Position numbers and translations under genes: made by a program
Shown: positions 3,175 through 44,808 of the stretch, piece after piece
Numbering within the stretch: position 1 is the first letter of the stretch
How the letters are laid out: each line of letters opens with the position of its first letter
The notes under the pieces: model-generated
Database searches by the model: none
What the model was told of the DNA's origin: nothing
Seen by the model: only the letters and a program-made list of their open reading frames with translations
Source of the DNA: a virus
Direction: 5' to 3' (one strand)
Length of the DNA: 47,671 nucleotides
IMG/VR virus record: IMGVR_UViG_3300044490_000050
Location: 1 to 47,671 of that record

Positions 3175-5742
3175 CTACGCCGCCCACTCAGTTCTATACC
3201 ATGAAAATTCATGATCTTGATTCACAAGATTAGGTTCGCCCTCAAACATTTCCCTCGGATCGAGATCGCGATTCATAAGCATCGCGCCAAGAGTATCATT
3301 TGCAAAGTTATCTTCATACTTTTCTACAGGAACCTCTGTTGCTTGAATCATCCTATCAGTGATTTCTCTACGAGAGATTTCTGAATGACAATAAGCCATA
3401 AAAACATCGTCGTGTTCACCTACAGGTTCTACAATCTTAGCATCTTTACGAACAAGAGCCGCAGCTTCTGCATGTAGCCAAATTGAAGAAACACGAGAAG
3501 GATCTTCAATAATTCCTTGTCGTCCAATGTTCAATACCGATACTCGTTCTCCAGGCTTAATTCGAACCCATGGATGATCTTCCATCTGTCCATTAGATGT
3601 ATATGACCAATGGAAGTTAGGATAACCAATTTTTGAAAGTAGCGCCCAAACAGTTTTACCGTCATTATTATATTCACAATTCATTCTTGCATAATTATAG
3701 AATTTTCCAATCAGCGCCAACACGAGCCAGAAGTTTTCTGGTTTAATTCTAAACTTGTAGACAGCACAGACCTTTCCATACTCATTTGTGATTACTACTG
3801 ACGATAAGTCAGATTCTGATCTATTACCGATAGTTTTTTGCGCTCCTTCTGAAACATCTCCTCCCTCGAAATAACTCATATCCGCTACTGGAAATTCATA
3901 GATATGAAGTTCTCCGAACTTAGATTGCGTCAAAGAAGGTTGAAGATCAGCAGCATTGATAAGACCAAAATGCTCATCCTTAGACGGAGCACCGCTATGA
4001 ACAATAGTCCCAGAAAACAAGGGCTGTTTAACGTACTTGAGTGATTCTTTTATAACAGCATTTGGAACATAACGAGCACCAATAGATGCCCAAGCATGTT
4101 CTGGAGTAGTAGGAAACTCCTGATCGAATAGAGTCTTGTCCTTAAATGTCAACTTAATTTGCATACGACGCCAATATATCTGAGCGTCTGTAAGGTGATA
4201 TTTAGCAGCATATTCAGATTCAGTTTCTACAATAGAACCTGAAGAATCAAGTTCTGAGAGAGATTCATCTTTATCGAGATATTTGAATTTCCTTTTATTA
4301 GGATTATTCAAATTATCATAATTATATTCATAACACGAATCCGGAGGTTCTTCTGCATATTCCAAAGATAACGTCCAAGGATAAAAATGTGCCTTCATCT
4401 GGTATTTGTTAAAACCAGACTGAGGTTTATGCAGTTCATCCCAGTCTGCTTTAAAATCATCAAGTCCATGTGCAGTAGATTCGTCAATAAGAACTGTATG
4501 CTTCCTAAAAGGAAGGCCAGGAAGCAAAGATGCTTTAATCTGCGCAGAACGATCTCCAGGCCATTTTGGCCTCTCGGACCAATGCATCATGTTATAATAC
4601 ATACCGGTACCAGGATTTCTTGACTCAGCGGATTCAAAAGTAATGAAAGATCCATTACTAAAGAAAAGTGTTCGTCCTTCACGTTTTATAATGGTCGGAA
4701 CACAAGCACCAAATTCATCATGAAGGGCAGCAAACCAGTCAATAAAGTCCTTTCTTTTGACGTGCATATGCTCATCTTTATCGATGATAAACAATATAGA
4801 AAACTTAGGAATCTGACAAATCAGCCACGCTTCAATAGACAGCAAAAGGGTGGTAAAACACAACTGACGTGACTTAAGCACCTGCCATCTTACAGGCACT
4901 TCGTCCATAAAGAAATCTTTAGTAAAATGCGATGAAGCGATAGCCTGGACACGCGTCAGGACCATCGGCCCGAAGCCTTTGTCAATACAATGCGGACCAA
5001 CACCAATACGATACTTGATTGGAAGATGCTTACAGAACTCTGCGTGAGAGTCCATAAGCTCATTCCAAAGAGTCCCAGAGTCTTCTGTAGAATCCCCTGA
5101 TGCAGTTCCTGATGCAGCTCCTGATGCGACCTCTGCCGTAACCTTTGCAGTAGGAGACTCTGGGACAGGTTGATTTAATACTGAATCCTTATCGCATTTT
5201 GAATTATGCGAGGATTCAGGGGTAGTAATGTCCGTAAAAATGCCCCTCCTGCTGCTGACGTCCTCTTCGCGCCATGGAGTACCCTGCCGATGCTGTTCTT
5301 CGTCGTTCCTTTCGCCAGCAGCAAGAGGGGCAGAATGATTAGTTGTTTTATGATTTGAAGTTGATTTATGATCTGAAGTTGATTTATAATCTAAAGTTGA
5401 TTTCTTTTCAGAACTTGTATTAATATCACCGTTATTCAGTATATTCCTAAAATCGTTAATCTCTCTTGACTGTGTAAACTCTCTCCAAGACATTTTATAT
5501 TTATTAAAGAACCCTACAAACGCTTCACCTTCGAGTCTATCTATATCAAGACCTTCGATCTTAAGTTCAGCAGTGAGTTCCTTAAATCTTTCAATGAAGT
5601 CGCGTAGAGCAGCGAGTTCTTCAGCATCAAAGGAGGAATGTAATGGGTGCCGAGGCTTTTCGACTGCAAGAAGATAAAGCATCCGCACACGTTGTTCAAC
5701 GTATGCCTTAGACATCGATCTAAGAGTGGATGTGTTGCTCAT
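3175..5742 (-). CDS. terminase large subunit (packaging ATPase-nuclease)
   Basis: An 855-aa packaging motor. A deviant Walker A reads K290-SRQLCFTT, with the lysine at the start as in lambda-type terminases. Walker B is the hydrophobic run MYYNMMHWSE, and a coupling motif follows (LIDESTA). The nuclease half includes FEGGDVSEG and the late acidic motif EHDDVFMAY. It is much longer than usual (about 450-650 aa) because of an N-terminal domain and a low-complexity insert at residues ~105-222: repeats of the type KSTSDHK, a charged block, then ASGAASGTASGD. Within that insert a 90-bp inverted-repeat element encodes residues 138-167. The ATG overlaps the small-terminase stop (ATGA). Confidence 0.88.
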   Translation of the reverse strand: MSNTSTLRSMSKAYVEQRVRMLYLLAVEKPRHPLHSSFDAEELAALRDFIERFKELTAELKIEGLDIDRLEGEAFVGFFNKYKMSWREFTQSREINDFRNILNNGDINTSSEKKSTLDYKSTSDHKSTSNHKTTNHSAPLAAGERNDEEQHRQGTPWREEDVSSRRGIFTDITTPESSHNSKCDKDSVLNQPVPESPTAKVTAEVASGAASGTASGDSTEDSGTLWNELMDSHAEFCKHLPIKYRIGVGPHCIDKGFGPMVLTRVQAIASSHFTKDFFMDEVPVRWQVLKSRQLCFTTLLLSIEAWLICQIPKFSILFIIDKDEHMHVKRKDFIDWFAALHDEFGACVPTIIKREGRTLFFSNGSFITFESAESRNPGTGMYYNMMHWSERPKWPGDRSAQIKASLLPGLPFRKHTVLIDESTAHGLDDFKADWDELHKPQSGFNKYQMKAHFYPWTLSLEYAEEPPDSCYEYNYDNLNNPNKRKFKYLDKDESLSELDSSGSIVETESEYAAKYHLTDAQIYWRRMQIKLTFKDKTLFDQEFPTTPEHAWASIGARYVPNAVIKESLKYVKQPLFSGTIVHSGAPSKDEHFGLINAADLQPSLTQSKFGELHIYEFPVADMSYFEGGDVSEGAQKTIGNRSESDLSSVVITNEYGKVCAVYKFRIKPENFWLVLALIGKFYNYARMNCEYNNDGKTVWALLSKIGYPNFHWSYTSNGQMEDHPWVRIKPGERVSVLNIGRQGIIEDPSRVSSIWLHAEAAALVRKDAKIVEPVGEHDDVFMAYCHSEISRREITDRMIQATEVPVEKYEDNFANDTLGAMLMNRDLDPREMFEGEPNLVNQDHEFSWYRTEWAA
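5242..5331. repeat. 90-bp in-frame inverted-repeat element inside the terminase gene
   Basis: GCCCCTCCTGCTGCTG at 5242-5257 pairs with CAGCAGCAAGAGGGGC at 5316-5331 (15 of 16 bases complementary). The enclosed sequence is GC-rich against an AT-rich gene, and the length is an exact 30 codons. It lies in the Ser/Thr-rich linker of the large terminase. It looks like an inserted palindromic element tolerated in a disordered loop, comparable in type to Rickettsia palindromic elements. No second copy was found in the window. Confidence 0.6.
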
Positions 5743-6107
5743 TCCTTATCCAGGATCTGCGCACGATCCAGAATCTGCGCACGATCCAGAATCTGCGCCT
5801 GCTTATTAGACACTACGCTCGCATCTGCATCCATAGCGAGTTTTTTTGGTCTCGACATATGATTGGTCGTCTTACCAAAGATAGATTGAACTTGCTCGTT
5901 GATTCCAAGTTTACCTTCAAGTAGAACATCTGCCATCATAAGTGATTGTGCGGCAAGTTTAGGAGAAGTCTCTTCTTGCTTAATAGTTGATACTACTTGA
6001 CCATCTTTGTCGAAAATAGTTTTAACGATTTGACGTTTACCTGAAACAGCTACTTCAAATAGCTGTTGGATTGATCTGTCAGTTAGATCTATATATCTTT
6101 GAGACAT
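5739..6107 (-). CDS. probable terminase small subunit
   Basis: A 122-aa protein immediately upstream of, and overlapping by 4 bp (ATGA), the large terminase. The size and place fit the DNA-recognising small subunit. The N-terminal ~75 residues are helical (LTDRSIQQLFEVAVSGKRQI, then AAQSLMMADVLLEGKLG). The middle is basic (SRPKK), and the C-terminus is a hexapeptide repeat AQILDR-AQILDR-AQILDK encoded by an 18-bp repeat. There is no sequence motif that proves the function; the call is by synteny. The C-terminal repeat may be the segment contacting the large subunit, but it could simply be slippage. Confidence 0.6.
   Translation of the reverse strand: MSQRYIDLTDRSIQQLFEVAVSGKRQIVKTIFDKDGQVVSTIKQEETSPKLAAQSLMMADVLLEGKLGINEQVQSIFGKTTNHMSRPKKLAMDADASVVSNKQAQILDRAQILDRAQILDKE
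5748..5801. repeat. 18-bp tandem repeat, three units
   Basis: Three consecutive units of the form ATCCAG(A/G)ATCTGCGCACG start at 5748, 5766 and 5784. They encode the repeated AQILDR at the C-terminus of the small terminase. Units differ by one or two bases, and the unit length preserves the frame. Confidence 0.9.
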
Positions 6108-6232
6108 CTTCTTATATCCCAGAAGAATATAATTAGTGGATATACAACTAAAAAGAGGAGAAGGAAACCTATGTACGGAGACTCTATTACCAGTATAGGC
6201 TGAGGCAGACTTAGTTGAATGAAGGTATTCAT
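6089..6232 (-). CDS. 47-aa single-span membrane protein (possible lysis gene)
   Basis: The frame from ATG at 6232 to TAG at 6091-6089 encodes MNTFIQLSLPQPILVIESPY followed by a strongly hydrophobic segment (residues ~20-38, ending IIFFWD) and a basic tail RRCLKDI. Positive charge after the span suggests an N-out/C-in topology. It overlaps the start of the small terminase by 19 bp and fills an otherwise empty gap. No good Shine-Dalgarno is visible, so coupling to the 84-aa gene or a weak start is assumed. In T7 the holin sits just before the small terminase, so a lysis role is an attractive guess. The gene itself is not certain. Confidence 0.45.
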   Translation of the reverse strand: MNTFIQLSLPQPILVIESPYIGFLLLFLVVYPLIIFFWDIRRCLKDI

Positions 6233-6256
6233 GATGAATTATTTATTATAATGAAT

Positions 6257-6511
6257 TTATAATGAATTATTTATCATACGAACAGGAACCCCGTTTTCCT
6301 TTGAAATAGTGGCGGCGTCGTCAAGTGTCTTAGCGAGAGTTCTGAATTCCTGTGGAAGATTAACGTTTGTTTCATGATATACGTGCACGCCGTTTTCAGC
6401 GATGACTTTTAATGCTGAAGACAGCAAATAGAAGATAAATATCATGCAACCTAATATAGACCCGAGAATCAGAAACATAAAGACTGGAGTATACGTTTCA
6501 AAGAACGACAT
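6257..6511 (-). CDS. 84-aa membrane protein, holin candidate
   Basis: First gene of the leftward operon. The start at 6511 is preceded by CTGGAG at good spacing. Residues ~9-34 form one long hydrophobic helix (FMFLILGSILGCMIFIFYLL). The C-terminal 50 residues are polar and predicted cytoplasmic or periplasmic. Size, one transmembrane span and position before the terminase genes resemble class III-type or T7 gp17.5-like holins. No holin family signature is recognised, so the function is inference. The gene follows a ~390-nt structured leader. Confidence 0.65.
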   Translation of the reverse strand: MSFFETYTPVFMFLILGSILGCMIFIFYLLSSALKVIAENGVHVYHETNVNLPQEFRTLAKTLDDAATISKENGVPVRMINNSL

Positions 6512-6760
6512 GCAACACTCCAGTGTTATTAAGTGTGGCTCAATATACTGTTCAGCACAACACTACTGTACGATATTGGCGGATCGTACAGTAGTGTGTA
6601 CCGACATGCACTACAGTATTAGTGCAATTGGATTACCCGGTTACGTCAGGTCTGCGGCACGATATTGATGCTTGCCAGCATCGTTGGTGCATGTATGCAC
6701 TCTTACGTGCGTTAGTCAGTGGCCACTGACAAAGACTCTATACTGAGAGTTGGAGAGAAT
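6512..6760 (-). promoter_or_regulatory. palindrome-dense leader of the leftward operon
   Basis: Between the leftward promoter and the 84-aa gene there is no open frame but a succession of stems. A 15-bp hairpin lies at 6560-6574/6583-6597 (core CACTACTGTACGAT, 8-nt loop). Smaller ones are TGCACTA/TAGTGCA near 6605, GATGCT/AGCATC near 6667 and GTGCAT/ATGCAC near 6687. A perfect 16-bp palindrome GTCAGTGGCCACTGAC is at 6715-6730, and ACTCT/AGAGT near 6735. As RNA this would be a highly folded leader. As DNA it is a row of possible protein-binding sites. Which of these it is cannot be told from sequence alone. Confidence 0.6.
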
Positions 6761-6793
6761 GATGATAACGAAGAATTTTGGGTTATTCTACTT

Positions 6794-6850
6794 CAAATTC
6801 AACTGAGACAGTCAAATTCAACTGAGACAGTCAAATTCAACTGAGACAGT
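6794..6850. repeat. 19-bp direct repeat, three perfect units (iteron-like)
   Basis: CAAATTCAACTGAGACAGT occurs three times head to tail at 6794, 6813 and 6832, followed by a diverged start of a fourth unit (CGAATCTGC). It is non-coding on both strands and lies between the palindromic leader and an AT-rich patch. Unit length and copy number resemble replication iterons or operator repeats. Confidence 0.95.
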
Positions 6851-6902
6851 CGAATCTGCTTCGTCTATTCTCCGCGGAGTTCAGTCCTCCTCTCCACTGT
6901 AC

Positions 6903-6931
6903 AGTATGCTCTGTCCGTGGCTACCTGTCAA
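6903..6931 (-). promoter_or_regulatory. leftward sigma70-type promoter for the late operon
   Basis: Reading the minus strand, TTGACA (6931-6926), a 17-bp spacer and CATACT (6908-6903). The -35 is perfect and the -10 has four of six consensus bases. A palindrome ACTGTACAGT (6896-6905) overlaps the -10 and the start site, and would be well placed as an operator. Transcription would enter the palindrome-rich leader and then the 84-aa gene. Confidence 0.6.
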
Positions 6932-7299
6932 GAAGATTTTTGAATATCGTTAAATGGTGCCTTGAAACGGCGTTTTGGCGCGGTGCGAAGTGGCAAGCGG
7001 TGCGAACGGCGCGGGCAAGGGAATTTGAGATTGAATATGATTATGCGACGTGAATAATAATAAATATAATGAATATAAAATTAGCAAATACTGAGTCAGG
7101 AAGGAACCGCGACTTCCTCCCCAAGGGGTGCGGGGGGCCGAGTGCAGCTCGGAGTCAATCCGACGTAGCGGCTGCAAGGCGAAACCGCGACGTCTGACCG
7201 ACACGGTACGACGTCGACGCGTGCCTGCACTTCATGAACCGACGCGACGTCGTATTGCCTTGACGTCGGGTAGCTGGGGTTGACGGGCAATGCTGCGTT
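6932..7299. other. non-coding control region with AT-rich patch, candidate origin
   Basis: No convincing gene. The stretch 7032-7095 is strongly AT-rich (TAATAATAAATATAATGAAT) inside GC-rich flanks. After it come a GC-rich segment with CCGAG/CTCGG stems and several GACGTC sites. With the 19-bp repeats on one side and the 14-bp array on the other, at the point where the two transcription arms diverge, this is the best candidate in the window for a replication origin. I see no clear DnaA box. Confidence 0.4.
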
Positions 7300-7451
7300 G
7301 CTGCGAGGACGTAGCTGCGAGGACGTAGCTGCGAGGACGTAGCTGCGAGGACGTAGCTGCGAGGACGTAGCTGCGAGGACGTAGCTGCGAGGACGTAGCT
7401 GCGAGGACGTAGCTGCGAGGACGTAGCTGCGAGGACGTAGCTGCGAGGACG
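7300..7451. repeat. 14-bp tandem repeat, ten units plus a partial
   Basis: GCTGCGAGGACGTA is repeated perfectly from 7300, with the eleventh copy broken after GCTGCGAGGACG at 7451. Because 14 is not a multiple of three, the array is open in several frames and produces artificial Ser/Arg/Leu-rich reading frames on the minus strand; I do not call these genes. It lies 20 bp upstream of a consensus promoter, so it may bind a protein, or serve as an iteron array. Confidence 0.97.
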
Positions 7452-8982: not shown

Positions 8983-9009
8983 GCGTGTAGAAATACTGCA
9001 CGCCAACCC

Positions 9010-9038
9010 TTGACAGGTTCTACCCACCAGGATAGAGC
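9010..9038 (+). promoter_or_regulatory. possible second (sigma70) promoter before the 255-aa gene
   Basis: TTGACA (9010-9015), a 17-bp spacer, then TAGAGC (9033-9038). The -35 is perfect but the -10 is poor, so this is only a weak candidate. It would give a shorter leader for the gene at 9129 and allow sigma54-independent expression. Confidence 0.3.
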
Positions 9039-9128
9039 CTACTCGCCTCGGGAGGCAATCCCGCCCACCCCTGGATACCAAGCCCGTAAATCGCATTATG
9101 CGTAAATCGGGTAACAGGAGCATCAAAA

Positions 9129-9896
9129 ATGTCCGCCACCAACCCGCTGTACCTCATCGATGACTTGTTCTGCAAGCCCTTCATCGCCCTGAACGTGGTC
9201 AAGCAGGAAGTGTTCGACGCCAACGTCGCGACATACAACAACAACCCCGCGTTCAAGGAATTCATCGACCGCCTCGCCGTCATGCGAAGTTTCGACCCGA
9301 AGGCCCCCCATGCAGACTTCCTGACCCTGGCACTCCAGGGTCCTGGAATCGTGATCGGAATGGCTCCGGACGTGGTCGAACTCGCCAAGAGCGTCGGCTT
9401 CCTCGAAGTCAAGACCGCGAAGCCGCGGCACTGGTCCTCCCAGCTTCTCAGCGTTCTGATGCCCATCGGATACAAGGCCATGTCCGAGTACTTCGCGTCG
9501 CATCGTTCCGAGCTCGAGGCGAAGCTGCCTGAGCTCTGCAAGATGCACAACCTGTCCCTTGCAGACGTCATCGTATCCACGGGCAAGCCTAACCCCGGAG
9601 CGTCCTGCGAAGTCGAAGTCAAGGGATTCGTCATCGAGAAGATCAAGGACAACCGGAAGGGCACGGGTCGCAACGTGACCCGTACCGCTTCCAAGCCCGG
9701 CGTCGAAGGTGCCGTGGAACGCACGGCCACCCTGTTCCTTTGTTTCCGAAATGACCTGATTCGGCCGGTGCCGCTCACCGGGAAGAAACTCGAGGCGTAC
9801 GAAGCCGCCCTCAAGGCGGGCGACGCCGATGCGGCCGCGGCGGCCGTCAGCGCGGACGACGACGACGAAGAGGAGAGCAGTGAGAACGTCGAGTAG
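9129..9896 (+). CDS. 255-aa early protein with acidic C-terminal tail
   Basis: First gene of the rightward replication arm. Function not recognised. The ATG at 9129 has AACAGGAGCATCAAAA upstream. Residues 1-~215 look like a compact mixed alpha/beta domain, with few charged runs and conserved-looking aromatic positions (PRHWSSQLLSVLMPIGYKAM). After an Ala-rich linker the protein ends in DDDDEEESSENVE. A folded body plus acidic tail is the layout of phage single-stranded-DNA-binding proteins, and none other is found, but no OB-fold signature can be read. Codon use is strongly GC-ending, suggesting high expression. Bracketed by a sigma54 promoter and a terminator-like hairpin. Confidence 0.85.
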   Translation: MSATNPLYLIDDLFCKPFIALNVVKQEVFDANVATYNNNPAFKEFIDRLAVMRSFDPKAPHADFLTLALQGPGIVIGMAPDVVELAKSVGFLEVKTAKPRHWSSQLLSVLMPIGYKAMSEYFASHRSELEAKLPELCKMHNLSLADVIVSTGKPNPGASCEVEVKGFVIEKIKDNRKGTGRNVTRTASKPGVEGAVERTATLFLCFRNDLIRPVPLTGKKLEAYEAALKAGDADAAAAAVSADDDDEEESSENVE

Positions 9897-9914
9897 CAGC
9901 ACCACACGACACAT

Positions 9915-9938
9915 ACAGCCGGCACTTGTGCCGGCTGT
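9915..9938 (+). terminator. stem-loop with TGTCGTCT tail after the 255-aa gene
   Basis: ACAGCCGGCAC (9915-9925) pairs perfectly with GTGCCGGCTGT (9928-9938), followed by TGTCGTCTAT. It lies 18 bp past the stop codon. The tail is the same as after the hairpin at 7759, which supports a shared function as terminator or RNA 3' end. Confidence 0.65.
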
Positions 9939-9946
9939 TGTCGTCT

Positions 9947-9977
9947 ATAGCCTGTAGCCTGACACGCTACGGGCTAT
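9947..9977 (+). terminator. second stem-loop with TGTCGTCT tail
   Basis: ATAGCC and GTAGC (9947-9958, one mismatch) pair with GCTAC and GGCTAT (9966-9977) over a 7-nt loop, then TGTCGTCTC. It lies directly behind the hairpin at 9915, so the two form a tandem. Confidence 0.5.
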
Positions 9978-9992
9978 TGTCGTCTCAAAGCC

Positions 9993-10026
9993 GTGCTACA
10001 GCACGCTACGTGCTACAGCACGCTAC
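9993..10026. repeat. 17-bp direct repeat, two units, each a small palindrome
   Basis: GTGCTACAGCACGCTAC is repeated head to tail at 9993 and 10010. Each unit holds GTGCT/AGCAC. Non-coding, between the terminator hairpins and the operator array. Confidence 0.85.
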
Positions 10027-11303: not shown

Positions 11304-11311
11304 GTATGACT

Positions 11312-11758
11312 ATGTCCGAACCACAGATTGAACTTGTCACATTTGGTTCACATCCTGTTCCCGCTCACCGTCACATCAATCCTGACGGCACTATCGGAGG
11401 ATGGGTAGCGGAGACTGCGTATGTTGCTGATACTGTTTACATCGAATACTCCGCTCGTGTTTACGATAATGCTCGTGTTTTAAATAACACTTGTATATTA
11501 GGAAATGCAAGAATCTACGGTAATGCATTAGTATTTGGCAACGCTTACGTTAGTGGAGATGCACAGATTTTCGATTACTCACATGTATATGGTAATGCGC
11601 ATGTATTTGAAAATGCAAACGTATACGGAAGAGCACATGTTTATGATAATGCGTGCGTCTATGGCGAAGTACATGTACATGGTGACGTACACATCAATGG
11701 AAATACAAATGCGTATGGAAAAGTACACATTTGTAACAATACACAGGTGATCAAATGA
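11312..11758 (+). CDS. left-handed beta-helix (hexapeptide-repeat) protein, first paralog
   Basis: 148 aa. After a head VPAHRHINPDGTIGGWVAET come ~14 imperfect hexads of the type (A/V)-x-(V/I)-(Y/F)-(G/D)-(N/D), e.g. ARVYDNARVLNNT and HVYGNAHVFENA. This builds a left-handed beta-helix as in hexapeptide acyltransferases, but no catalytic His loop or acyl-CoA site is visible, so it is probably structural or binding. The ATG at 11312 is preferred over 11306 by Shine-Dalgarno spacing. Its stop overlaps the ligase ATG (ATGA). A second copy with the same head lies right after the ligase. Confidence 0.8.
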   Translation: MSEPQIELVTFGSHPVPAHRHINPDGTIGGWVAETAYVADTVYIEYSARVYDNARVLNNTCILGNARIYGNALVFGNAYVSGDAQIFDYSHVYGNAHVFENANVYGRAHVYDNACVYGEVHVHGDVHINGNTNAYGKVHICNNTQVIK

Positions 11759-12702: not shown

Positions 12703-13425
12703 ATGTCAGAGAACGCTCAGACGACCTTCGACTTTGGCTTCGACCTCGTACCGGCTCATCGTCACACGAATCCAGACGGATCCGTCGGAGGATGGGTCGC
12801 AGAAACTGCGCACGTCGATGAGACGTGTTATATCGAGTTTAATACGTATATCTACGGCAATGCGCGTATCTACGGCAACGCGCACATCTTCGGCAACGCG
12901 CGTATCTACGACGACGCGCGCATATCCGGCAACGCGCACATCTCCGGCAACGCGCGTATCTACGACGACGCGCGCATATCCGGCAACGTGCACATCTCCG
13001 GCAATGCGCGTATCTACGACGACGCGCATATCTACGGCAATGTGTGCGTCTACGACAACGCGCGCGTCTACGATAACACTTGTGTCTCAGGTAGCGCATA
13101 TATCTACGGCGACGCGCGTGTCTCAGGTAGCGCATATATCTACGGCGACGCGCGTATCTACGGCGACGCGCGTATCTACGGCAATGCGTGTATTTCTGAA
13201 GATGCTCTCATCTCATCTCAAATGAGTATCATTTTCGGCACCTTCAAATACAACTTCACGATTTACCGTGATTCCAAACTTGGCATCATGGTTCGAATCG
13301 GATGTCAGTATCACACTCTTTCGCATTGGAGAAGTAATGTGAAGAGCATCGCTATTAAGAATGACGATGCTGAATATGAATCTATTGCAAGAGACATTTT
13401 CCGTCTTGCAAAGCACATTCGTTAA
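12703..13425 (+). CDS. left-handed beta-helix protein, second paralog (240 aa)
   Basis: It shares the head VPAHRHTNPDGSVGGWVAET with the 11312 gene. It then has ~22 hexads such as GNARIYDDARISGNAHIS encoded by nearly identical GC-rich 18-bp units (12840-13190), and adds a ~75-residue C-terminal alpha/beta cap (FGTFKYNFTIYRDSKLGIMV). The perfect repeats give shadow reading frames in other phases. The AAGGAGTATAACT before the ATG is the genome's typical site. The repeat block is more GC-rich than its cap, so repeat expansion is recent. Function unknown. Confidence 0.8.
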   Translation: MSENAQTTFDFGFDLVPAHRHTNPDGSVGGWVAETAHVDETCYIEFNTYIYGNARIYGNAHIFGNARIYDDARISGNAHISGNARIYDDARISGNVHISGNARIYDDAHIYGNVCVYDNARVYDNTCVSGSAYIYGDARVSGSAYIYGDARIYGDARIYGNACISEDALISSQMSIIFGTFKYNFTIYRDSKLGIMVRIGCQYHTLSHWRSNVKSIAIKNDDAEYESIARDIFRLAKHIR

Positions 13426-19074: not shown

Positions 19075-22000
19075 ATGCTTGATTTTAAGCAGCAAGTAAT
19101 CGCTGCGATTGACATACAACGTGAGGCCGAGGATCTGCTCGGCGCTCACGATTACCAACGTGGAGACGAGTTTAGATACTCGTGTCCATGTAAAGACAAT
19201 CATAAGCATGGCGATCACAATAACAGTCTGACTTTGAATGTTAGAACTGGTCAGTTCAAATGCCATGCTTGTGGGTTTATTGGAGATTTGTTTACTCTTT
19301 ATGCAGAAGTAAAGTCTCTTAATCTTAAAAGTGATTTCGGACTTATACTTAAACAACTTGGTGCGAAGTATGGAGTTTCTGTAAGCACACAGAAGTTTCA
19401 ACGTCGTACAGAAACTAAAGAAGTAATCAAGGCAATCAAAGTATTACCTAAAGATAATCGTGATTTCTTGCATTATGCTCAGGCTTATAGAAAACTTCTG
19501 CCAATAGAAGTAGGAGAGCGTTTACTTAATAACTACGGCATCAATCAGGAGACGATTGCAAAACGTGGGTACGCATATATCTATAATAGACTATGGATTC
19601 CAGTTCCCAAAGACTACAAAGGAAAGAATCATGCGGACACTCAACTTGTTGGTATCCGTAAGCATGATGTGATGCGTGCTCACGCGAAATGGCAAATAGA
19701 CGACGGACCTAAAGCTGGTATATGGGATACAGAAGTCCCGGATTCGCATCCTACTTGGAAGTGGCGTTCAGGTAATGGTAAATCAATTGGTGTAGCAGGA
19801 TTCAATCCTGTATACGTCTACCCAATGGAAGTTCTTTTAACTTCAAGAGAAGTATGGTTGGTTGGTGGAGAACTTAAAGCAGACCTTCTTAATCAACTTG
19901 GTATTCCAGCAGTCTGTTGGACCGCTGGAGAAGGCGAGTGGAACAAAGCAGTCATTAAACAATTTGCGTCAAAGATCGTTCGTGTTCTTATGGACATAGA
20001 CGATGCTGGCGAACGTGCAACATTCGGTAGTGTAGGTGAAGCATCTTACACCAATAAAGTAGGAGACAACCGTGGGAAATCGCCGAAAGGATTATGCCAA
20101 GTCTTGCTTGAAAACGGGGCGGGGGAAGTTTATGGTGGGAGATTGCCAAAAACTTTCGAAATCTATGAGGATTCAGATTGTTCAACAGGAAATGAATCGT
20201 CAGGAGATGGAAAAATTGAATCTAGACGAAGAATATCCACGGTTTCCTTACCATCCAATGGCGATGTTACGGATTTCCTACGCTTTCATAGATGGAATAT
20301 AAAAGAAGCTCTTCCAAAGATTACTTGGCAAAAGTTTGAACATGTTCAAATTGAATCTTTTGAACAAGCAATATCTGAATATGAGTTTGAACAAGTACCG
20401 GACTTTGAAAAGTCCACGCATATTAGATTTAATCAAGTCGTAAATCCAACTTTTGTAGGAAAATGGCTTGACGTTTCTTTTATCATCGCAGGAAAACAAG
20501 ACACTCCATATCTAAGTCCAATGGGTGCTACGGCTACTTGCGAACCTGTAGCAATCCAAGGTCCATTGATGCAGAAGTGTGGATTCTGTCCACTCGGAAA
20601 AGGTGAGCATAGTATTACTATGCAATTCTCTGACTCAGAAAGAGTGGACTTTGCCGGGATGTCTCCTCCTAAAGTGAGGAAACTGATCATCAGCAAGTTC
20701 AAGATTCCGCAATGCAGTTATCCCATGATTGATGTTCGTAATGATTCGCTCATCCCAGTCGTGGCTATTCCTACTTTAGATGCTAATGTTATTTCAGAAC
20801 AGTACCTGCAACTCCCAATCTGGATCTCCGGATTGGATAAGGAATCAGAAACACACGAGTTGAACCCAACAGACGATAATGCCGCATATGATTCTGTAGG
20901 AAAAATCATTCCACAACCTTCTGATGGTAAGATTACATTTGTAGCTTCTCGTCTAAAACGTAGCGAAGGTGATGTGTTTGCGTTCAAATATAATGAATTT
21001 TATTCTAAAAGACTTCAAGAAATCATGAGTTCGTATGGAACTAAAGAAGATGCTATTTGTGCTGTTGTAAATTCATTGAATTCGCATCTGTTACATTTGT
21101 ATCATATGGAGAAAATGATTCGCTATCAGCTTATGGCTTTCTTTATGCCATTTCGTTATCGTATTGGGCACCAACCTAATCCTAAAGTGTGTGCAGAAGT
21201 CTGTATAATAGGAGAATCTCGTTGTGGAAAATCGTCTACTATCGCTCAGTTGCTTCCTTTCTTTGGTGCGGGACGTTACGTTGACGTCTCAACAGCTACA
21301 GATATTGGACTTGTTGGAGGAAACACAAGCATCGGCTCACGCTCCATTTTTACTTGGGGCGTCCTGCCAATGGCAAATGGTGGCATTGTAGTAATCGATG
21401 AAGCCAATAAATTGTCGACAGAAGCAATTTCTGCACTTACAAATATCAGATCATCAGGAGTAGCTGAGAGAGTAACTGTATCAGGACATAGAAAAGCTAA
21501 AGCTAATGTTCGCATCTTGTGGCTTGCTAATCCACGAGATGGTCGCGAACTCAAAAAGTACGGCGACCCAATGAGAGCAGGTTTTGACTTATTTGGATCA
21601 GATCAGGACATGGCTCGCCTTGATATGTTTATGATTCAGTTTAAAGAAAAAAATGTAGATGGTATTCATGGTGTACAACATGGTCTTTATGAAGAAGTCT
21701 ATCCTCGCGATCTTGCAAGATACCATTTATCGTGGGCATGGTGTTTAAAAGAACATGATTTTGTATTTGAAGATCCTATGTATTTATTAAATAAAACTTC
21801 AAGTATTATTCCAAAAAATGATCATCCTATGCTGTATGCAACTGAAGCACGATTTAAAGTAGGCCGTATTGCTGCTACAATAGCCACATTAACATACAAT
21901 AGATATGATCAACATTCAGTTCTTGTTGATAATGAATCAGTAGATTTAGCTTGTGAGCATATTCAAAAGATGATAGGAGATACTACACCTGGATGTTTAC

Positions 22001-22263
22001 AGAGCACCGAAGGAAAGGTAGTAATACCACAAGAGTTAATCTTTGTATTCAATAACATAACTGTTGAAAATAAGCCAAAACTGGGGATCTTCCTGGACAG
22101 GACTCTTTGTTCAGACAGAGACTTGAAAGAATTGTTTGGACAAAGCATTGCATTTCAACTGATGTCCATAATTCCGTGGACGCTCAAACTGGCTGACTAC
22201 AACAACGGAAAGATCATCTGGGACGATAGACTTCGTTCCATGGTCAGGGAATACATGAGATAG
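19075..22263 (+). CDS. primase fused to an MCM-like AAA+ helicase
   Basis: A 1062-aa replication protein. N-terminal CHC2-type zinc finger: C37PC with H43/H48, and C63HAC66. The TOPRIM fold of DnaG-like primases follows: LVGGE266LKAD and VLMD307ID309DA. A ~300-residue linker leads to an AAA+ ATPase: Walker A GESRCGK719SS, an insert (DIGLVGG), then WGVLPMANGGIVVID775EA, a sensor-1-type WLANP, and an arginine-finger-like AR848LD. The W-G-x(5)-GG-hhhDE and ANP pattern is that of MCM helicases, not DnaB/RecA-type or SF3. It probably loads at the origin, unwinds and primes. The GGAG before 19075 fixes the start. Confidence 0.85.
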   Translation: MLDFKQQVIAAIDIQREAEDLLGAHDYQRGDEFRYSCPCKDNHKHGDHNNSLTLNVRTGQFKCHACGFIGDLFTLYAEVKSLNLKSDFGLILKQLGAKYGVSVSTQKFQRRTETKEVIKAIKVLPKDNRDFLHYAQAYRKLLPIEVGERLLNNYGINQETIAKRGYAYIYNRLWIPVPKDYKGKNHADTQLVGIRKHDVMRAHAKWQIDDGPKAGIWDTEVPDSHPTWKWRSGNGKSIGVAGFNPVYVYPMEVLLTSREVWLVGGELKADLLNQLGIPAVCWTAGEGEWNKAVIKQFASKIVRVLMDIDDAGERATFGSVGEASYTNKVGDNRGKSPKGLCQVLLENGAGEVYGGRLPKTFEIYEDSDCSTGNESSGDGKIESRRRISTVSLPSNGDVTDFLRFHRWNIKEALPKITWQKFEHVQIESFEQAISEYEFEQVPDFEKSTHIRFNQVVNPTFVGKWLDVSFIIAGKQDTPYLSPMGATATCEPVAIQGPLMQKCGFCPLGKGEHSITMQFSDSERVDFAGMSPPKVRKLIISKFKIPQCSYPMIDVRNDSLIPVVAIPTLDANVISEQYLQLPIWISGLDKESETHELNPTDDNAAYDSVGKIIPQPSDGKITFVASRLKRSEGDVFAFKYNEFYSKRLQEIMSSYGTKEDAICAVVNSLNSHLLHLYHMEKMIRYQLMAFFMPFRYRIGHQPNPKVCAEVCIIGESRCGKSSTIAQLLPFFGAGRYVDVSTATDIGLVGGNTSIGSRSIFTWGVLPMANGGIVVIDEANKLSTEAISALTNIRSSGVAERVTVSGHRKAKANVRILWLANPRDGRELKKYGDPMRAGFDLFGSDQDMARLDMFMIQFKEKNVDGIHGVQHGLYEEVYPRDLARYHLSWAWCLKEHDFVFEDPMYLLNKTSSIIPKNDHPMLYATEARFKVGRIAATIATLTYNRYDQHSVLVDNESVDLACEHIQKMIGDTTPGCLQSTEGKVVIPQELIFVFNNITVENKPKLGIFLDRTLCSDRDLKELFGQSIAFQLMSIIPWTLKLADYNNGKIIWDDRLRSMVREYMR

Positions 22264-30962: not shown

Positions 30963-33900
30963 CTATTTCTTCAAAGCAGGCGCTCTACGAGACTTCCACG
31001 CTTTGCCAGTTACAGTGTATTGTCTGATAACTCCAAGTCTTTTCAAAGATAGAGTCATCTGATCAAGTCGATTTCTATCACGATAATACTTCTGAGTATT
31101 AGGATCATACTTATAGAGCCTTTCCGCGAGTATTGTGCGAGCAAGAGACTCATAATTGACATGAGGTGTTACTACATTTCCGTTTGCATCTACAACAGGT
31201 TTGCCAGTTTTAGGATCAGTATCGATTTCATAGACTTGCTGCACAGCATTGATAAAACGTGAGTATGGTAATTCTCCCATTAGCCATGCAAATGTAGGAT
31301 TGATTGTCTCAATGTTTCCTACTTTTTTATAGTCTACCGCACGCTGAATCCATTCAGGAGCCTTTCTAAAAGCCACTGGAGAGTAGTCGGATTGTGAATC
31401 CTCTGTATCACGAATCTGCTTTCCAATAAAAGTATCTTTGTTGAAGATCCATTCAAGTGCAGATGTAATACCGAAAGGACCTCTTGCAAGAAGTTGCAGA
31501 GCATCTCTTGCTTTTTCTGAATCTTGCATATTAGCAAGTCCAGTTAAACTTTCGAGTAGTTCAGCGGTATCTTCTTGGGCAAGACCAAGATTTGTTTTGA
31601 CAATCAAGTTACCTTGATTATCCTTCGATATAATATGAAGACGTTCCTGTAGCCAATCAGGAGTATCTGCTGGATCATAGTCTGTATTTGCATCACGCGC
31701 AAAACGAAATGGATTCATTACACGAGAAGGTTGCTCAACCATACTACGGAATGAAACATCCATTGAATGTTTCATCCACGAATAAAACGGTATTGCTCTA
31801 CGCATTACGCGACGTTCATAATTAGTAAGACTACTAAAATCAAACAAATAGTCTTTGACTGCTTTAGCAGCGAGCCCAAGCGAACCAGTCTCGCCTGCTA
31901 CAGTCAAGAACAACATCATGCGAGTAGGAATCTCAGATACGAGTTCCCCTGCTCGAAACATATCAGACATCCCAATCGACTGCGCTGCGCTTGTTGCACC
32001 ACCAGATGGAAAGATGTCTTTAGAGACGTGCGTCCAAAAAACTCCACGTTTCTCCATTTCGTCAACTGCTTGTGCGACTGTCATGCGAAGTACATGCTCA
32101 CCTTTACCAAAGGTGATTACTCTATTGGCGAGTTTATCAAGTTTAGATAATCTTGTAGCGCCAGCTATCATTCCTTTAGTCGCACTTGCAGTTACAGTCG
32201 ATAGTCCAGCACCAGCAGCGGCTCCAAGAACTGTAGATTTTGGAATATCGAGTATTGATCCATCATCTCCAAGTGATTGCATTGTGCCGATAGTAGCGCC
32301 TCCAAGCGCCCCATACAATGCTCCAGACTTTGCTCCAGATTTAATAACACTACGAGAAAGATCAGAACCGTTATTTGCAATATAATACGATATACAGGCT
32401 ACACTATCCGCAAGATGTTTTGGATGCAGAAGTGCAAGTCCTGCTTTCGTATATGCAAGCATCGTATTAGTAACTGCATTTCTCTTAAAGAATGCAATCC
32501 ACGGAGCCATCAATGGAGCCTTAAAGAAGTTCTGAATGAAATCATAACCTTTCAAGATTGCAGATTGTTCAGCAAAGGAAGATGGATGCACCTGTTCCAT
32601 CAGAGTTGCAATAGAATCAGGAAGATACCATCGTCCACCACCGAATCCCTGCCATGGATCCAGTCCTTTAACTGTGGTAGGACCAAACTCGTCGTATCCA
32701 ATAGGAGATTCTGCTCCAATCTCAACTCCAATATGAGTAAGATCAGGTTGTTTGATCTTGACTTTCAATTCTGGAGGAACGTCTCCAGCGAATGCTTCCA
32801 TCTTTGAGATACGAGTATCCAATTTGCCAGCATAACGTTTAGCAGTTTTTTCACCAGAATCTACACCTGCCTGAAGTTTCTGACGCTCTGCACGAAGACG
32901 AGTTAGTTCACGTTGATTGCGAAGAATCTCACGTTGAGCTTTCTTATTTCCAGTTTCAGCTTTTCCAGATACCTTAGCACGACGTAGACGTTCTTTAGCG
33001 TCAGATACTTCAGTACGTGCCTGCTTATAGCGAGCACGCATACCTTTAGCTTGACGTTTAAGATTCGATTGCTCTTCGATTGAGGAAGCAAGGTCTTCCA
33101 TGTCTGGGGATTTTTCTCGCATCACTCTAGCATATCCAATCGCATGTTCAGTATCTGCCTGAGTAGCTATGTCTCGAGCAGTGCTAACTTCTTCATCGAG
33201 TTCATCTAGTCTTGCACGAATTGGTGTAAGAATATCCTTTTTTGTAGTCCTGCTCAAAGTGTTTTTATGGCGAGCGAGTTTCTTCGCATTAGCAATGCTT
33301 GTCTTACGAGTATTGTATACTTCAATAAGACGTTTACGTGCATCAAGTAGAGCTTCTTTGGCTTTCTTGGCGTCTTTTTTAGCAGCATTAATTGTAGCAT
33401 CATGAGTCTTTACGACACGAGCGCGTTCTCGTTTAAGTTCATCTAAATCGTATCCTGTAGCATATAGAATACGATCATCATATGATTTAAGTGCAGCTTT
33501 CTTCTCTTTGACGAGATTCTTGACTTTATCAATGTGTGCTTTTCTACGTGCTACAAGAACAGGAATCTCGTCGCGAATTGGCTTCGCCTGCTCGCGACTT
33601 GTTTTTCTCGCAGCAGCAATAGAAGCATCTCGTTCTTCTGCATGTCGTGTGATCTTATTCTTGTAGTTTAAAGAATTAATAGAACGATTAGCGCGAAGAA
33701 TTTTTTGCTCTTCTTGTAGAGTTTTATATTGTTTTACTGCATTATCATATTTTGTTTTCAATGAAACTACACGAGGATCAGATTCTACAACATTAACTGC
33801 TGCCTTACGTTCTGTGCGCATCATATCAATACGCGTTTTAAGAGCAGCACGTCTTTCTGCAAGATCCTGCAATTCAGAATCAATTGAAGCTACTTTAGAT

Positions 33901-36641
33901 TTTGCTTCATCAATCTGTGCTGTAGCACGATCAAGAACTTCTGGAAGATTATTTTCAGAAAAAAACTTCGGCTTTGGAATCTCTACAATTCGTAGACGTT
34001 CATTAAGAGGAGAAACTACTCCTACATTAAATCCTTCTCCTCTATGTCCAGTCCAAAGTCTCAAAGTGTCATGAAGATTATCAGCCATACGTGCAGTCAA
34101 TTTATCATAACTGTCAATGCCGTATTTTGCTTTCAAATACTGCATAAGTTCATCGTGAGTGAAACCAATCTTATTAACCATTTTACTAATAGCGGTAAGT
34201 TGGTCTGGAATAGGTTTTACAACGTCAGTGAAAATGCCCATCTTCTGACGCCAACGTACTGCGTTAGAAAGCATCCACTGAGGCCATTGAGCTGAAGATG
34301 CAAGTTCCATAGGTCTGTCTATAGATTTTCTAAATGCATTACGCATATTAGCAAGTTGTTTAGTATCATCTGCAGATGACCCGCCAAAGATTCTAACATC
34401 AATATCTGGAAAGACTGCTCGTAGAGGAACACCATGTTGACGCAACTTTTCATCAAGTTGCATCATCGCATTTCCCATTTGCTTTGGAGTTACATCATCT
34501 ACAAGTGGTGTACCTTCATAAAGGTGTTCAAGAATCAAATTGATGTTGAACTCTTTACGTTCTCCAGCAACTTGCATATGTACAGTTTCACCAAGAGGAG
34601 GAACAGTCTGTAGACGATCTGTAATAAACTTCTTACTATAATCCTTCTTTTCAGAGGTCATCCATTTGATTACTTCACGATTAGCTTTCTGATTAGTTGA
34701 ATCAGAAAAACCAAGACGTGCAGGAGTCACATCATCCTTTGCCCAAACTTGATCAAGGTCTGTTATAATATCTGGATCATGTCTGTTAACTGCAAAGAAA
34801 TCTCGAAGCTGTTTAGAGATTCCATTCTGAGCACTATTAATCATTGCATAAGGCATACCATATGCCTGGACAAGATGATCATTAAATCTCGAAGTATAAA
34901 CATGCTCGAGTGACATCATCTTTCGCTGATGAAGAATCTTAATAAGATTTGTCTCTACGAGTTTCTCACCACCTTTGGTTTCGTTAATCAACTCACCAAG
35001 AGTAGCAAGAGAACGATGTTGAGAAAATCCTGGAGCCCCAAATCTAATTCCATTAGCTCTCGTCAAAGAGAGAAAAGGGATATTCTCTTTCATCATATGA
35101 GCAAGATAGTTATCACGTTCACGTCCAAGAACTCCAAACTTTTGTTCTTCATCAGCCATTTCTTTAAACAAATCACGAGCACGACGTGCTGCCTGAAGAG
35201 CACGTTCATCAAATGAAACTTCTCCAATAGCGGTCATAATACTACCAGCCGCATTATTCGCGTTAAGATCGAACTCATCAGAATCGAGAAGGAAAGATGC
35301 AGCACGAGCTTGATCTTCTGTAAGACCTACAAATGTAGGATCTTTCTTGATCATACGCTCCCAATCGAGCTTACGTTTAGCTACTGTATTCTGAAAGGCT
35401 TCGAAGACTTGTTTCGCTTCTGGATCAAGACCCCACGTTTGGGAAAAACGTCGTCCTACTCCATGAATAAATTTTCCAGGATAAGTCATCCTGTCTGAAC
35501 GAGCAAGCATTCGTCCGATAGATCCCTCACTCCAAAAACCAAGTTCCTTACGATGTAGAGGAGCGGTCTCTTTGTAAAGTCTCTCCATACTTGGAACTTC
35601 ATTAGACATACCACGAAGTGCCTGAGTAACGACAGCATCTTCCGAAAAGAGTCTTGACAAGATACCTCTATCTTGTGCCATCACATTCTTTGCGAGTCTA
35701 TTATAATTCTTTTCCATATAAGGCACAACTTCAGCATGAAGACGCTGAAGCATCTCTTGCGTGCCCCACATAGTCTGTCTTTCTGCATTTCCTGTTTCTT
35801 TTAGAAATCTATTAGTCGCTTCAAGTTCATCAACGAACTTCGGAAGCATCTCACGAACTGCTTCTTTATATACTCGTCCACCCCATCGAGACATAGTTAG
35901 AGTTTTCTGTTCAGCTCCAACTACAGAACGAGCTGCACGAGCAGCTTTGGAGAACTTAGAACCAGCAGCAGCGACTTTAGTTCCTCCTCCAATACCAAAT
36001 GTAAGCCACGTCGAAGGGGAAAGAGCAATATCCATACCGAGGCCAAGAAGAAAATCCGGATTAGAAACTACATCAAGTAGATTATCTCCTGGCGCTGGTT
36101 CGTATCCAAGCACATCAGAAAACGACGTTCGCTTTTTCCACGCTTTCCAAAAATCACCAATACTAAATCCAAGTGTATATGCTCCAAGAGCACCAAATGG
36201 ATCTTCTATGACATTACGAACTACTCCTACTGGATTAGTTACCGGAACACCAGCTACTCCCATAAGATTTGGAACAGTAGGGATAGTAACAAAATCACTA
36301 TTTGGAGTATGCCGTTGCTTATATAGATTACGAGCATGAGCCAATGATGCCATAGCGTAATTATCAAGAGAAAAAATATCTACAAACGGCTGCATAATAT
36401 CGCTGCCGGATGGTTCAAAACGCAAGATTTTTTCGATCACATTTCTATGATTAGGATCTTCAAGAACACGAGCAGCAGTCTTCTCGTCGATTAGACCACG
36501 AGCAAGAGCCTGTCTTACATAAAGTTGATACCTCGCGTATTCTTTATCTTGAAAAGCATTTCCAGTCCTAAGTGCAGTAGGAGTATCTTCTGCACTAATT
36601 GCAGACTGACGTTCAGCGAGACTTGGATAGTAAGGAGGCAT
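30963..36641 (-). CDS. giant internal virion / DNA-ejection protein (1892 aa)
   Basis: The largest gene of the window. Residues 1-~890 form globular domains. ~895-1285 is a long charged coiled coil (Arg/Lys/Glu/Ala-rich, e.g. KKAKEALLDARKRLIEV). ~1434-1497 has hydrophobic Gly/Ala helices (GALYGALGGATIGTM, AAAGAGLSTVTAS) suitable for membrane insertion. Around 1611-1628 is ERRVMRRAIPFYSWMKHSM, like the C-terminal domain (LPD38-type) of giant phage polyvalent proteins. As third of three ejection-type genes it corresponds by order to T7 gp16. No transglycosylase motif is recognised. GGTGATTAA precedes the ATG. Confidence 0.75.
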   Translation of the reverse strand: MPPYYPSLAERQSAISAEDTPTALRTGNAFQDKEYARYQLYVRQALARGLIDEKTAARVLEDPNHRNVIEKILRFEPSGSDIMQPFVDIFSLDNYAMASLAHARNLYKQRHTPNSDFVTIPTVPNLMGVAGVPVTNPVGVVRNVIEDPFGALGAYTLGFSIGDFWKAWKKRTSFSDVLGYEPAPGDNLLDVVSNPDFLLGLGMDIALSPSTWLTFGIGGGTKVAAAGSKFSKAARAARSVVGAEQKTLTMSRWGGRVYKEAVREMLPKFVDELEATNRFLKETGNAERQTMWGTQEMLQRLHAEVVPYMEKNYNRLAKNVMAQDRGILSRLFSEDAVVTQALRGMSNEVPSMERLYKETAPLHRKELGFWSEGSIGRMLARSDRMTYPGKFIHGVGRRFSQTWGLDPEAKQVFEAFQNTVAKRKLDWERMIKKDPTFVGLTEDQARAASFLLDSDEFDLNANNAAGSIMTAIGEVSFDERALQAARRARDLFKEMADEEQKFGVLGRERDNYLAHMMKENIPFLSLTRANGIRFGAPGFSQHRSLATLGELINETKGGEKLVETNLIKILHQRKMMSLEHVYTSRFNDHLVQAYGMPYAMINSAQNGISKQLRDFFAVNRHDPDIITDLDQVWAKDDVTPARLGFSDSTNQKANREVIKWMTSEKKDYSKKFITDRLQTVPPLGETVHMQVAGERKEFNINLILEHLYEGTPLVDDVTPKQMGNAMMQLDEKLRQHGVPLRAVFPDIDVRIFGGSSADDTKQLANMRNAFRKSIDRPMELASSAQWPQWMLSNAVRWRQKMGIFTDVVKPIPDQLTAISKMVNKIGFTHDELMQYLKAKYGIDSYDKLTARMADNLHDTLRLWTGHRGEGFNVGVVSPLNERLRIVEIPKPKFFSENNLPEVLDRATAQIDEAKSKVASIDSELQDLAERRAALKTRIDMMRTERKAAVNVVESDPRVVSLKTKYDNAVKQYKTLQEEQKILRANRSINSLNYKNKITRHAEERDASIAAARKTSREQAKPIRDEIPVLVARRKAHIDKVKNLVKEKKAALKSYDDRILYATGYDLDELKRERARVVKTHDATINAAKKDAKKAKEALLDARKRLIEVYNTRKTSIANAKKLARHKNTLSRTTKKDILTPIRARLDELDEEVSTARDIATQADTEHAIGYARVMREKSPDMEDLASSIEEQSNLKRQAKGMRARYKQARTEVSDAKERLRRAKVSGKAETGNKKAQREILRNQRELTRLRAERQKLQAGVDSGEKTAKRYAGKLDTRISKMEAFAGDVPPELKVKIKQPDLTHIGVEIGAESPIGYDEFGPTTVKGLDPWQGFGGGRWYLPDSIATLMEQVHPSSFAEQSAILKGYDFIQNFFKAPLMAPWIAFFKRNAVTNTMLAYTKAGLALLHPKHLADSVACISYYIANNGSDLSRSVIKSGAKSGALYGALGGATIGTMQSLGDDGSILDIPKSTVLGAAAGAGLSTVTASATKGMIAGATRLSKLDKLANRVITFGKGEHVLRMTVAQAVDEMEKRGVFWTHVSKDIFPSGGATSAAQSIGMSDMFRAGELVSEIPTRMMLFLTVAGETGSLGLAAKAVKDYLFDFSSLTNYERRVMRRAIPFYSWMKHSMDVSFRSMVEQPSRVMNPFRFARDANTDYDPADTPDWLQERLHIISKDNQGNLIVKTNLGLAQEDTAELLESLTGLANMQDSEKARDALQLLARGPFGITSALEWIFNKDTFIGKQIRDTEDSQSDYSPVAFRKAPEWIQRAVDYKKVGNIETINPTFAWLMGELPYSRFINAVQQVYEIDTDPKTGKPVVDANGNVVTPHVNYESLARTILAERLYKYDPNTQKYYRDRNRLDQMTLSLKRLGVIRQYTVTGKAWKSRRAPALKK

Positions 36642-38217: not shown

Positions 38218-38230
38218 TGTCCTTAAGTAT

Positions 38231-38275
38231 ATAGTTACTAACTATTATAGTTACTAAATTATAGTTACTAACTAT
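38231..38275. repeat. 15-bp palindromic direct repeats in the ejection-gene junction
   Basis: ATAGTTACTAACTAT occurs at 38231-38245 and 38261-38275, with a shorter copy ATAGTTACTAAAT between. Each full unit is a 7-1-7 palindrome. The last copy overlaps the stop codon of the 380-aa gene. Confidence 0.9.
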
Positions 38276-39414: not shown

Positions 39415-39423
39415 TGATTTATC

Positions 39424-41890: not shown

Positions 41891-41914
41891 TCTTGTACTC
41901 AGATATTCTTGTAC

Positions 41915-42535: not shown

Positions 42536-42552
42536 TTTGTTGAATAATCTCG

Positions 42553-42705
42553 TTAAATGATTATTCTATCTTCTTTACGAGTTTTAAGATTTAACTCTTT
42601 AAGTTGAATAGTAATACGCTTATTAAATGAAGATTCATCAGATAAAGGTTCATCAAGACCTATCTTTTTCATCACAAGTTTATCTGATAGTGATTTAATT
42701 CTCAT
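42553..42705 (-). CDS. 50-aa basic hypothetical peptide
   Basis: Short frame filling the gap between nozzle and 206-aa genes: MRIKSLSDKLVMKKIGLDEP, then a charged helical remainder ending RKEDRIII. Codon use matches its AT-rich neighbours. There is no clear Shine-Dalgarno. It starts 10 bp after the nozzle stop within a duplicated AATAATGAG sequence, so it would depend on coupling. Plausible but not certain. Confidence 0.45.
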   Translation of the reverse strand: MRIKSLSDKLVMKKIGLDEPLSDESSFNKRITIQLKELNLKTRKEDRIII

Positions 42706-42715
42706 TATTTACTCA

Positions 42716-44743: not shown

Positions 44744-44808
44744 ACTATTTATATCCTATTCTATTATCTTATTATCTTATTATCTTATTATCTTATTATC
44801 TTATTATA
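44744..44808. repeat. AT-rich 8-bp tandem repeat between adaptor and nozzle genes
   Basis: CTTATTAT is repeated about five times (44768-44806), followed by ATTA. Non-coding spacer; on the minus strand ATAATAAG repeats precede the GGATATAAATAGT ribosome site of the nozzle gene. Slippage-prone, and may tune translation. Confidence 0.85.

Follow-up and report, generated by a model that had tools for sequence, protein, structure and literature searches.

The window analysed here is the whole of an IMG/VR virus record (IMGVR_UViG_3300044490_000050) of 47,671 bases, and the gene with which this work is concerned lies at positions 19075..22263 of its plus strand. It is a complete open reading frame (ORF) with exact bounds, starting at an ATG with a GGAG a short distance upstream, and it encodes a protein of 1062 amino acids in which domains of a DnaG-type primase (CHC2 and TOPRIM) are followed by an MCM-like AAA+ motor. 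Such a fusion had been proposed in a preliminary description of this DNA, and we confirm that the ORF is genuine and that this reading largely holds. The parts of the gene are listed below, with conservation counted in a family alignment of 66 members, the window protein included, from which the family profile was also made.

19075..22263, plus strand: primase-MCM gene, in the order CHC2, RNA-polymerase/TOPRIM primase, MCM N-terminal domain, MCM AAA+ domain, C-terminal helical/winged part
19156..19314, plus strand: CHC2 zinc-binding domain, residues 28-80, with C37, H45, C63 and C66 (Pfam match below the cut-off, conservation, match to Aquifex DnaG)
19429..19845, plus strand: N-terminal part of the DnaG-type RNA-polymerase core, residues ~119-257 (profile match to DnaG and T7 gp4; model)
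19846..20289, plus strand: TOPRIM domain, residues ~258-405 (Toprim_2 in family members; alignments)
19864..19878, plus strand: TOPRIM motif 1, GGELK, residues 264-268 (Gly264 for the canonical Glu, Lys268 for Asp, invariant E266 kept)
19993..20001, plus strand: TOPRIM DxD, D307-I-D309 (invariant, 66/66)
20263..20274, plus strand: third TOPRIM acidic motif, D397-V-T-D400 (D397 in 65/66, D400 in 62/66)
20392..21018, plus strand: MCM N-terminal domain, residues 440-648, an OB-fold-like barrel with a four-cysteine site, C489, C502, C505 and C547 (AlphaFold2 model, PDB matches, cysteine conservation)
21022..21978, plus strand: MCM-type AAA+ domain, residues 650-968 (Pfam, model, Foldseek, profile comparisons)
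21211..21234, plus strand: Walker A, GESRCGKS, residues 713-720 (G713 and K719 invariant, 66/66)
21316..21357, plus strand: helix-2 insert hairpin, residues 748-761 (model strands 748-753 and 756-761; it ends at the invariant W761, with G762 next)
21385..21402, plus strand: Walker B, IVVIDE, residues 771-776 (D775 in 59/66, E776 in 65/66)
21460..21501, plus strand: pre-sensor-1 beta hairpin, residues 796-809 (model strands 796-801 and 804-809)
21529..21531, plus strand: sensor 1, N819 (invariant, 66/66)
21607..21624, plus strand: arginine-finger motif D845-M-A-R848-L-D850, the equivalent of MCM SRFD (D845 and R848 invariant, 66/66)
22018..22260, plus strand: C-terminal helical, presumably winged-helix-like part, residues ~982-1062 (secondary structure of the model)

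All of the motor motifs named in the preliminary description were located in the protein: GESRCGKSS at residues 713-721, W761-G762, the DE pair 775-776, ANP at 818-820 and ARLD at 847-850. The glycine pair said to follow W-G is likewise present, but at a spacing of x(6), not the x(5) that had been given; this GG is a trait of the window's own lineage, the place being taken by RR in most relatives (50-52/66). Since K719, W761-G762, N819 and R848 are invariant in 66 divergent proteins, the others of which are 19-26% identical to the window protein, the motor pattern goes beyond chance. R813 is invariant as well, and Walker A and B, the sensor-1 asparagine and the arginine finger are all intact in the window protein. 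Position 801 is lysine in 57/66 members and threonine in the window protein, with R799, H805, R806, K807 and K809 nearby.

The assignment of the C-terminal half to MCM is supported by profile comparison, by the AlphaFold model and by Foldseek. In profile-profile alignments (hhalign) of residues 640-968, archaeal MCM scored 137.9, against 65.6 for YifB and between 26 and 47 for the remaining AAA+ clades (NtrC 47.1, RuvB 36.4, McrB 29.3, RavA 29.2, MoxR 26.3). Each non-MCM clade except YifB and MoxR was represented by one sequence, which somewhat lowers its score. With residues 450-968 the MCM score rose to 157.0, the match spanning 458-946. When PDB sequences were searched with the family profile, MCM chains appeared from 1.8e-11, and there was no DnaB, SF3, MoxR, YifB or NtrC among the 60 chains listed of 73. 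None of the clades tried thus surpassed MCM, as the preliminary description had anticipated for the motor; an SF3 family was absent from the Pfam matches and from the listed PDB matches, no dedicated SF3 profile comparison having been made. The window protein has no Pfam DnaB match, and the window holds no DnaB_C (the RecA-type motor). The AlphaFold2 model built on 66 sequences (mean predicted local distance difference test, pLDDT, 81.3) contains the helix-2 hairpin and the pre-sensor-1 hairpin, the inserts by which an MCM motor was to be recognised in a predicted structure, and few gaps are needed to align the two to their counterparts in MCM. The best 50 solved structures found by Foldseek with the whole chain were all MCM (E 1e-21 to 3e-19, ~550-710 columns); the high root-mean-square deviation of these matches probably reflects domain orientation.

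Because the profile of the N-terminal domain gave no significant match to MCM, residues 440-648 were folded separately. The resulting model (pLDDT 87.8) again retrieved MCM structures in all of its top 50 Foldseek matches (E ~1e-6 to 1e-5). Three cysteines of this domain, C489, C502 and C505, are present in 66/66 members and C547 in 59/66; they probably form a metal site, with a spacing (x12, x2, x41) wider than that of the compact zinc ribbon of archaeal and eukaryotic MCM.

The N-terminal half of the protein is homologous to DnaG-type primases. The family profile matched Aquifex DnaG in the PDB at 1.1e-29, across the zinc and polymerase domains, as well as E. coli DnaG (1.5e-12) and T7 gp4 (2.7e-10), in agreement with the CHC2-TOPRIM assignment made previously. 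On the single divergent window protein, Pfam gave a match to Zn_ribbon_DnaG (CHC2) at 6e-4, under the cut-off, and none to TOPRIM; among 50 aligned members, Toprim_2 was recognised in 41, MCM in 40 and CHC2 in 31. All four CHC2 ligands are present in the window protein, C37 and C63 being kept in 64/66 members, and its TOPRIM DxD and third acidic motif are intact (D307, D309, D397, D400). No match to DNA_primase_S, the PriS-like archaeo-eukaryotic primase (AEP), was obtained for the window protein, which has the DnaG-type core instead.

In a tree with YifB as the outgroup, the phage-type motors form one clade (support 100/99) beside archaeal/eukaryotic MCM (96/83). The wider AAA+ trees do not decide the sister group. 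The window protein sits on a long branch, with L012 as its sister (100/99). Members with AEP primases make up one subclade of the phage-type motor clade (100/100), and L102 (TOTE-type AEP), L100 (CHC2-TOPRIM) and L101 (primase-less) group together (95/91); a single TOPRIM clade was marginally rejected (approximately unbiased test, p 0.049). The primer module has therefore been swapped on one motor clade, which carries DnaG-type primases, PriS-like AEP (BcMCM-like) and TOTE-type AEP. Because three primase types occur on this one clade, at least two exchanges of the primase took place, whatever the root. The TOTE-type fusion to the same MCM motor lies at 4459-7479 of L102, an Omnitrophota contig from a metagenome-assembled genome.

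Searching GenBank phages by tblastn (E<=1e-5) yielded 51 records, named for Microbacterium, Bacillus, Paenibacillus, Arthrobacter, Weizmannia and Eggerthella, with two uncultured, most of them carrying the annotation DNA primase or primase/helicase; 50 records were obtained when the motor alone served as the query. Pfam recognised TOPRIM and MCM together in seven of nine relatives, CHC2 also in four of the seven, and a PriS-like AEP with MCM in Bacillus phage vB_BboS-125 and B. velezensis plasmid p3. A scan for close relatives with the single window protein gave no match, and an alignment-based scan was needed, which confirmed at least 259 loci in viral contigs; a single peptide pattern found at least 12 loci in 84,980 genomes. 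The primase-MCM family is thus common among phages, and the view that MCM is uncommon in bacterial viruses, taken in the preliminary description, has to be abandoned in the face of these loci and the ~50 GenBank phage records. The hosts named for the phage relatives are all bacteria, and the protein occurs in phages of B. subtilis and Microbacterium foliorum that have been cultured. In many distantly related phages the gene belongs to the core replication cluster, and in several it is near PolA or DnaE-like genes. In L096 the protein is divided between ORFs 3697-5382 (CHC2-TOPRIM and N-domain) and 5995-7347 (AAA+), and L084 and L088 are likewise split, with AAA+ in the second ORF, which may be a natural split, an intron or a sequencing error.

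The fusion of an AEP primase to MCM was already known, and TOPRIM-MCM is a variant of the phage primase-MCM. Bacillus prophages and plasmids encode BcMCM and PrimQH/AEP-MCM proteins, reportedly described by McGeoch and Bell in 2005, Samuels in 2009 and Sanchez-Berrondo in 2012. Like the window protein, they carry a primase and then an MCM motor in one chain and belong to bacterial mobile elements, and the AEP-MCM proteins that we fetched (L005, L008, L093-L095, L098, L099) share with it the N-domain cysteine site and the motor clade. Their primase, however, is of the archaeo-eukaryotic PriS-like kind, whereas that of the window protein is CHC2-TOPRIM of DnaG type, an unrelated fold. Judged by architecture and host, the fetched proteins are probably orthologues of BcMCM. 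BcMCM is a 3'-5' helicase with ATPase stimulated by single-stranded DNA and with primase/polymerase activity (PMC4538821), and Kazlauskas in 2018 (PMC5862659) reported that bacteriophages and plasmids have MCM proteins which accompany AEP primases and have diverged far from archaeal MCM. The closest counterparts in architecture among annotated genes are the 'DNA primase' genes of Krampusvirus, BSP7, Youna2, Wollypog, API480 and ctIqW946, which are TOPRIM-MCM like the window protein (19-23% identity) and were deposited as DNA primase, primase/helicase, 'DNA primase small subunit' or 'DNA directed DNA polymerase'; most of them have EGExD in the TOPRIM motif, whereas ctIqW946 shares GGELK with the window protein. 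The Krampus protein is called a DNA primase in the Microbacterium phage paper, where MCM is unmentioned (PMC7302621). We found no description of a TOPRIM-MCM fusion in the literature searched, though an earlier one is possible. T7 gp4 and DnaG share with the window protein the CHC2 zinc domain and the TOPRIM core, and in T7 gp4 these are also fused to a helicase, but its motor is of RecA/DnaB type (SF4) and moves 5'-3', whereas for the MCM-type AAA+ motor of the window protein 3'-5' movement is expected. Archaeal and eukaryotic MCM have in common with the window protein the OB N-domain, the helix-2 and pre-sensor-1 hairpins, the arginine finger and the C-terminal winged-like part, at ~11-16% identity in structural alignment; the window type differs in its fused primase and in forming a separate, long-branch clade.

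The following genes lie on the same strand as the primase-MCM gene (start positions are given).

11755, plus strand: ATP-dependent ligase
13450, plus strand: SNF2-type helicase
16209, plus strand: PD-(D/E)XK nuclease
22599, plus strand: Dam-type methylase
24299, plus strand: pyrophosphatase
27222, plus strand: ThyX
28586, plus strand: resolvase-like gene

The ligase, SNF2, PD-(D/E)XK exonuclease, ThyX and resolvase-like genes constitute a replication neighbourhood, which supports a role of the fusion in replication. DnaB was found neither in the window nor in 14 related phage records. Profiles of family A, B and C DNA polymerases matched nothing in the window, which may be an incomplete contig, and tRNA and Rfam scans of it gave nothing. 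The L012 contig shares with the window the primase-MCM gene and then the methylase, the SNF2 gene, a 1892-aa protein and a 675-aa protein of the structural side.

The 1892-aa protein (30963-36641, minus strand) has no Pfam or PHROG match; its counterpart in the L012 contig has 1777 aa (phmmer 4e-25), and it is possibly a giant virion-internal protein. Presumed structural genes at 36679-46104 (minus strand) have almost no matches in PHROGs or Pfam, a methyltransferase at 40620-41183 being the exception, and for this reason the virion belongs to a poorly sampled group; 42716-44743 bears a weak likeness to 'phage stabilization protein' genes (E 0.01). The gene at 12703-13425 (plus strand) is made up of an 18-bp (six-codon) repeat with the consensus TATCTACGGCAACGCGCG, present ~19 times, and has a second, shorter relative in the same PHROG at 11306-11758. 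The contig runs into tandem repeats at both ends, 1-136 and 47352-47671 (15 copies of AGCCAGTCG; a 129-bp unit). It may therefore have been broken off there and be incomplete. A 14-bp repeat occurs in 11 copies at 7296-7451. Positions 9000-10000 have 60% GC, compared with ~40% for the genome, and long ORFs on both strands, the minus-strand ORF being without a PHROG or Pfam match.

We consider it very probable that the window protein is the replicative 3'-5' helicase-primase of a tailed phage. By homology with MCM and BcMCM, the C-terminal ~600 residues would most likely form a hexameric, ATP-driven MCM ring travelling 3'-5' along the leading-strand template, while the DnaG-type head tethered to it would be positioned at the exit of the displaced strand and provide the lagging-strand template with RNA primers. 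Unwinding and priming would thus be coupled in one chain, loaded and working without a DnaB-type ring or its loader. As no polymerase was recognised in the window, we propose that one would be recruited from the host.

Several observations weigh against this reading. Pfam ranks MCM top for the window protein (7e-7), at a modest single-protein score of 29.0 bits (cut-off 23.3), and the same model matches in all 14 control genomes, E. coli included, because of which the Pfam match is insufficient alone and was dropped as sole proof. The N-domain resembles MCM by a structural match alone (TM-score ~0.45). Trees of the AAA+ core favour MCM with the phage motors weakly (77/74) and do not reject phage with YifB (p 0.26), and were set aside as a means of deciding between MCM and YifB/MoxR. 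The catalytic Glu of TOPRIM motif 1 is absent from the window protein, Gly264 aligning with the EG motif of DnaG, and the motif reads GGELK instead of EGExD. No biochemistry of any TOPRIM-MCM member was found in the literature. The motor could, in principle, be another AAA+ ATPase with a pre-sensor-1 hairpin (YifB/ComM, MoxR, McrB), for example a remodelling ATPase fused to a primase: the same inserts occur throughout the shared AAA+ superclade, AAA_5 is matched in Pfam (3e-5, 24 bits), and the AAA+-core trees would accommodate such a placement. With an MCM score of 138 against 66 for YifB and 26 for MoxR, an OB domain whose top 50 matches are all MCM even when it is folded without the AAA+ part, and MCM chains but no YifB, MoxR or NtrC among the listed PDB profile matches, we regard this explanation as highly improbable.

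A more serious alternative is that of an MCM helicase with a decayed primase, in which the CHC2-TOPRIM half would be a structural or DNA-binding head and host DnaG would prime. T7 gp4 cannot do without either Glu of its EGE motif or the Asp after them. In the window protein the position of DnaG E265 is Gly and the motif Asp is Lys, CHC2 falls under the Pfam cut-off, and the first Glu is absent from 15/66 members (Glu 51, Gly 8, Ala 7), with 5 changes between the Glu and non-Glu states on a quick tree of the motor region; Lys at 268 occurs in 10/66. The absent Glu is regarded as the general base, and the DxD residues as metal ligands (PMC4538821). An inactive site should drift, yet E266, D307 and D309 are kept in 66/66, Gly and Ala members included, D397 in 65/66, and all four CHC2 ligands are present, so that complete decay, though possible, appears rather doubtful. 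Since the rest of the primase active site stays under selection, we favour an altered but working TOPRIM site that would use Glu266. Replacement of the canonical general base by Gly264 nevertheless makes priming doubtful and the least secure of the activities that the window protein may have. Thus, of the single chain able to load, unwind and prime that had been envisaged for this locus, the motor identity stands and loading is presumed, whereas primase activity of this particular member is uncertain. A fuller scheme, an MCM chassis with three exchanged primases, unrelated or only distantly related to one another, on which the catalytic Glu of the window lineage moved from the first to the second position of EGE, with altered chemistry and still working, is put forward tentatively. 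It might also be argued that the protein is an initiator or restart helicase-primase acting at the origin or at stalled forks only, the bulk of DNA being unwound by host DnaB; with no polymerase found in the window, the phage seems to depend on the machinery of its host, and a role in fork restart was suggested for BcMCM (PMC4538821). This is unlikely, as the gene stands in the core replication cluster of many distant phages, near PolA or DnaE-like genes in several, and none of the 15 records (the window and its 14 relatives) has a DnaB of its own. A replicative helicase-primase built on an MCM motor remains the reading that we prefer.

MCM is usually taught as the archaeal and eukaryotic replicative helicase, and DnaG as the primase that partners DnaB, the helicase of bacteria. 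In an entire phage family a DnaG-type primase is joined to MCM instead, and close relatives of its motor bear AEP primases, by which the interchangeability of primase and helicase lineages becomes directly testable. Equally testable is whether a DnaG-type primase, whose usual partner is a ring moving 5'-3' along the lagging strand, can cooperate with one predicted to run 3'-5' along the leading strand. Many annotations that now read 'DNA primase' could also gain precision.

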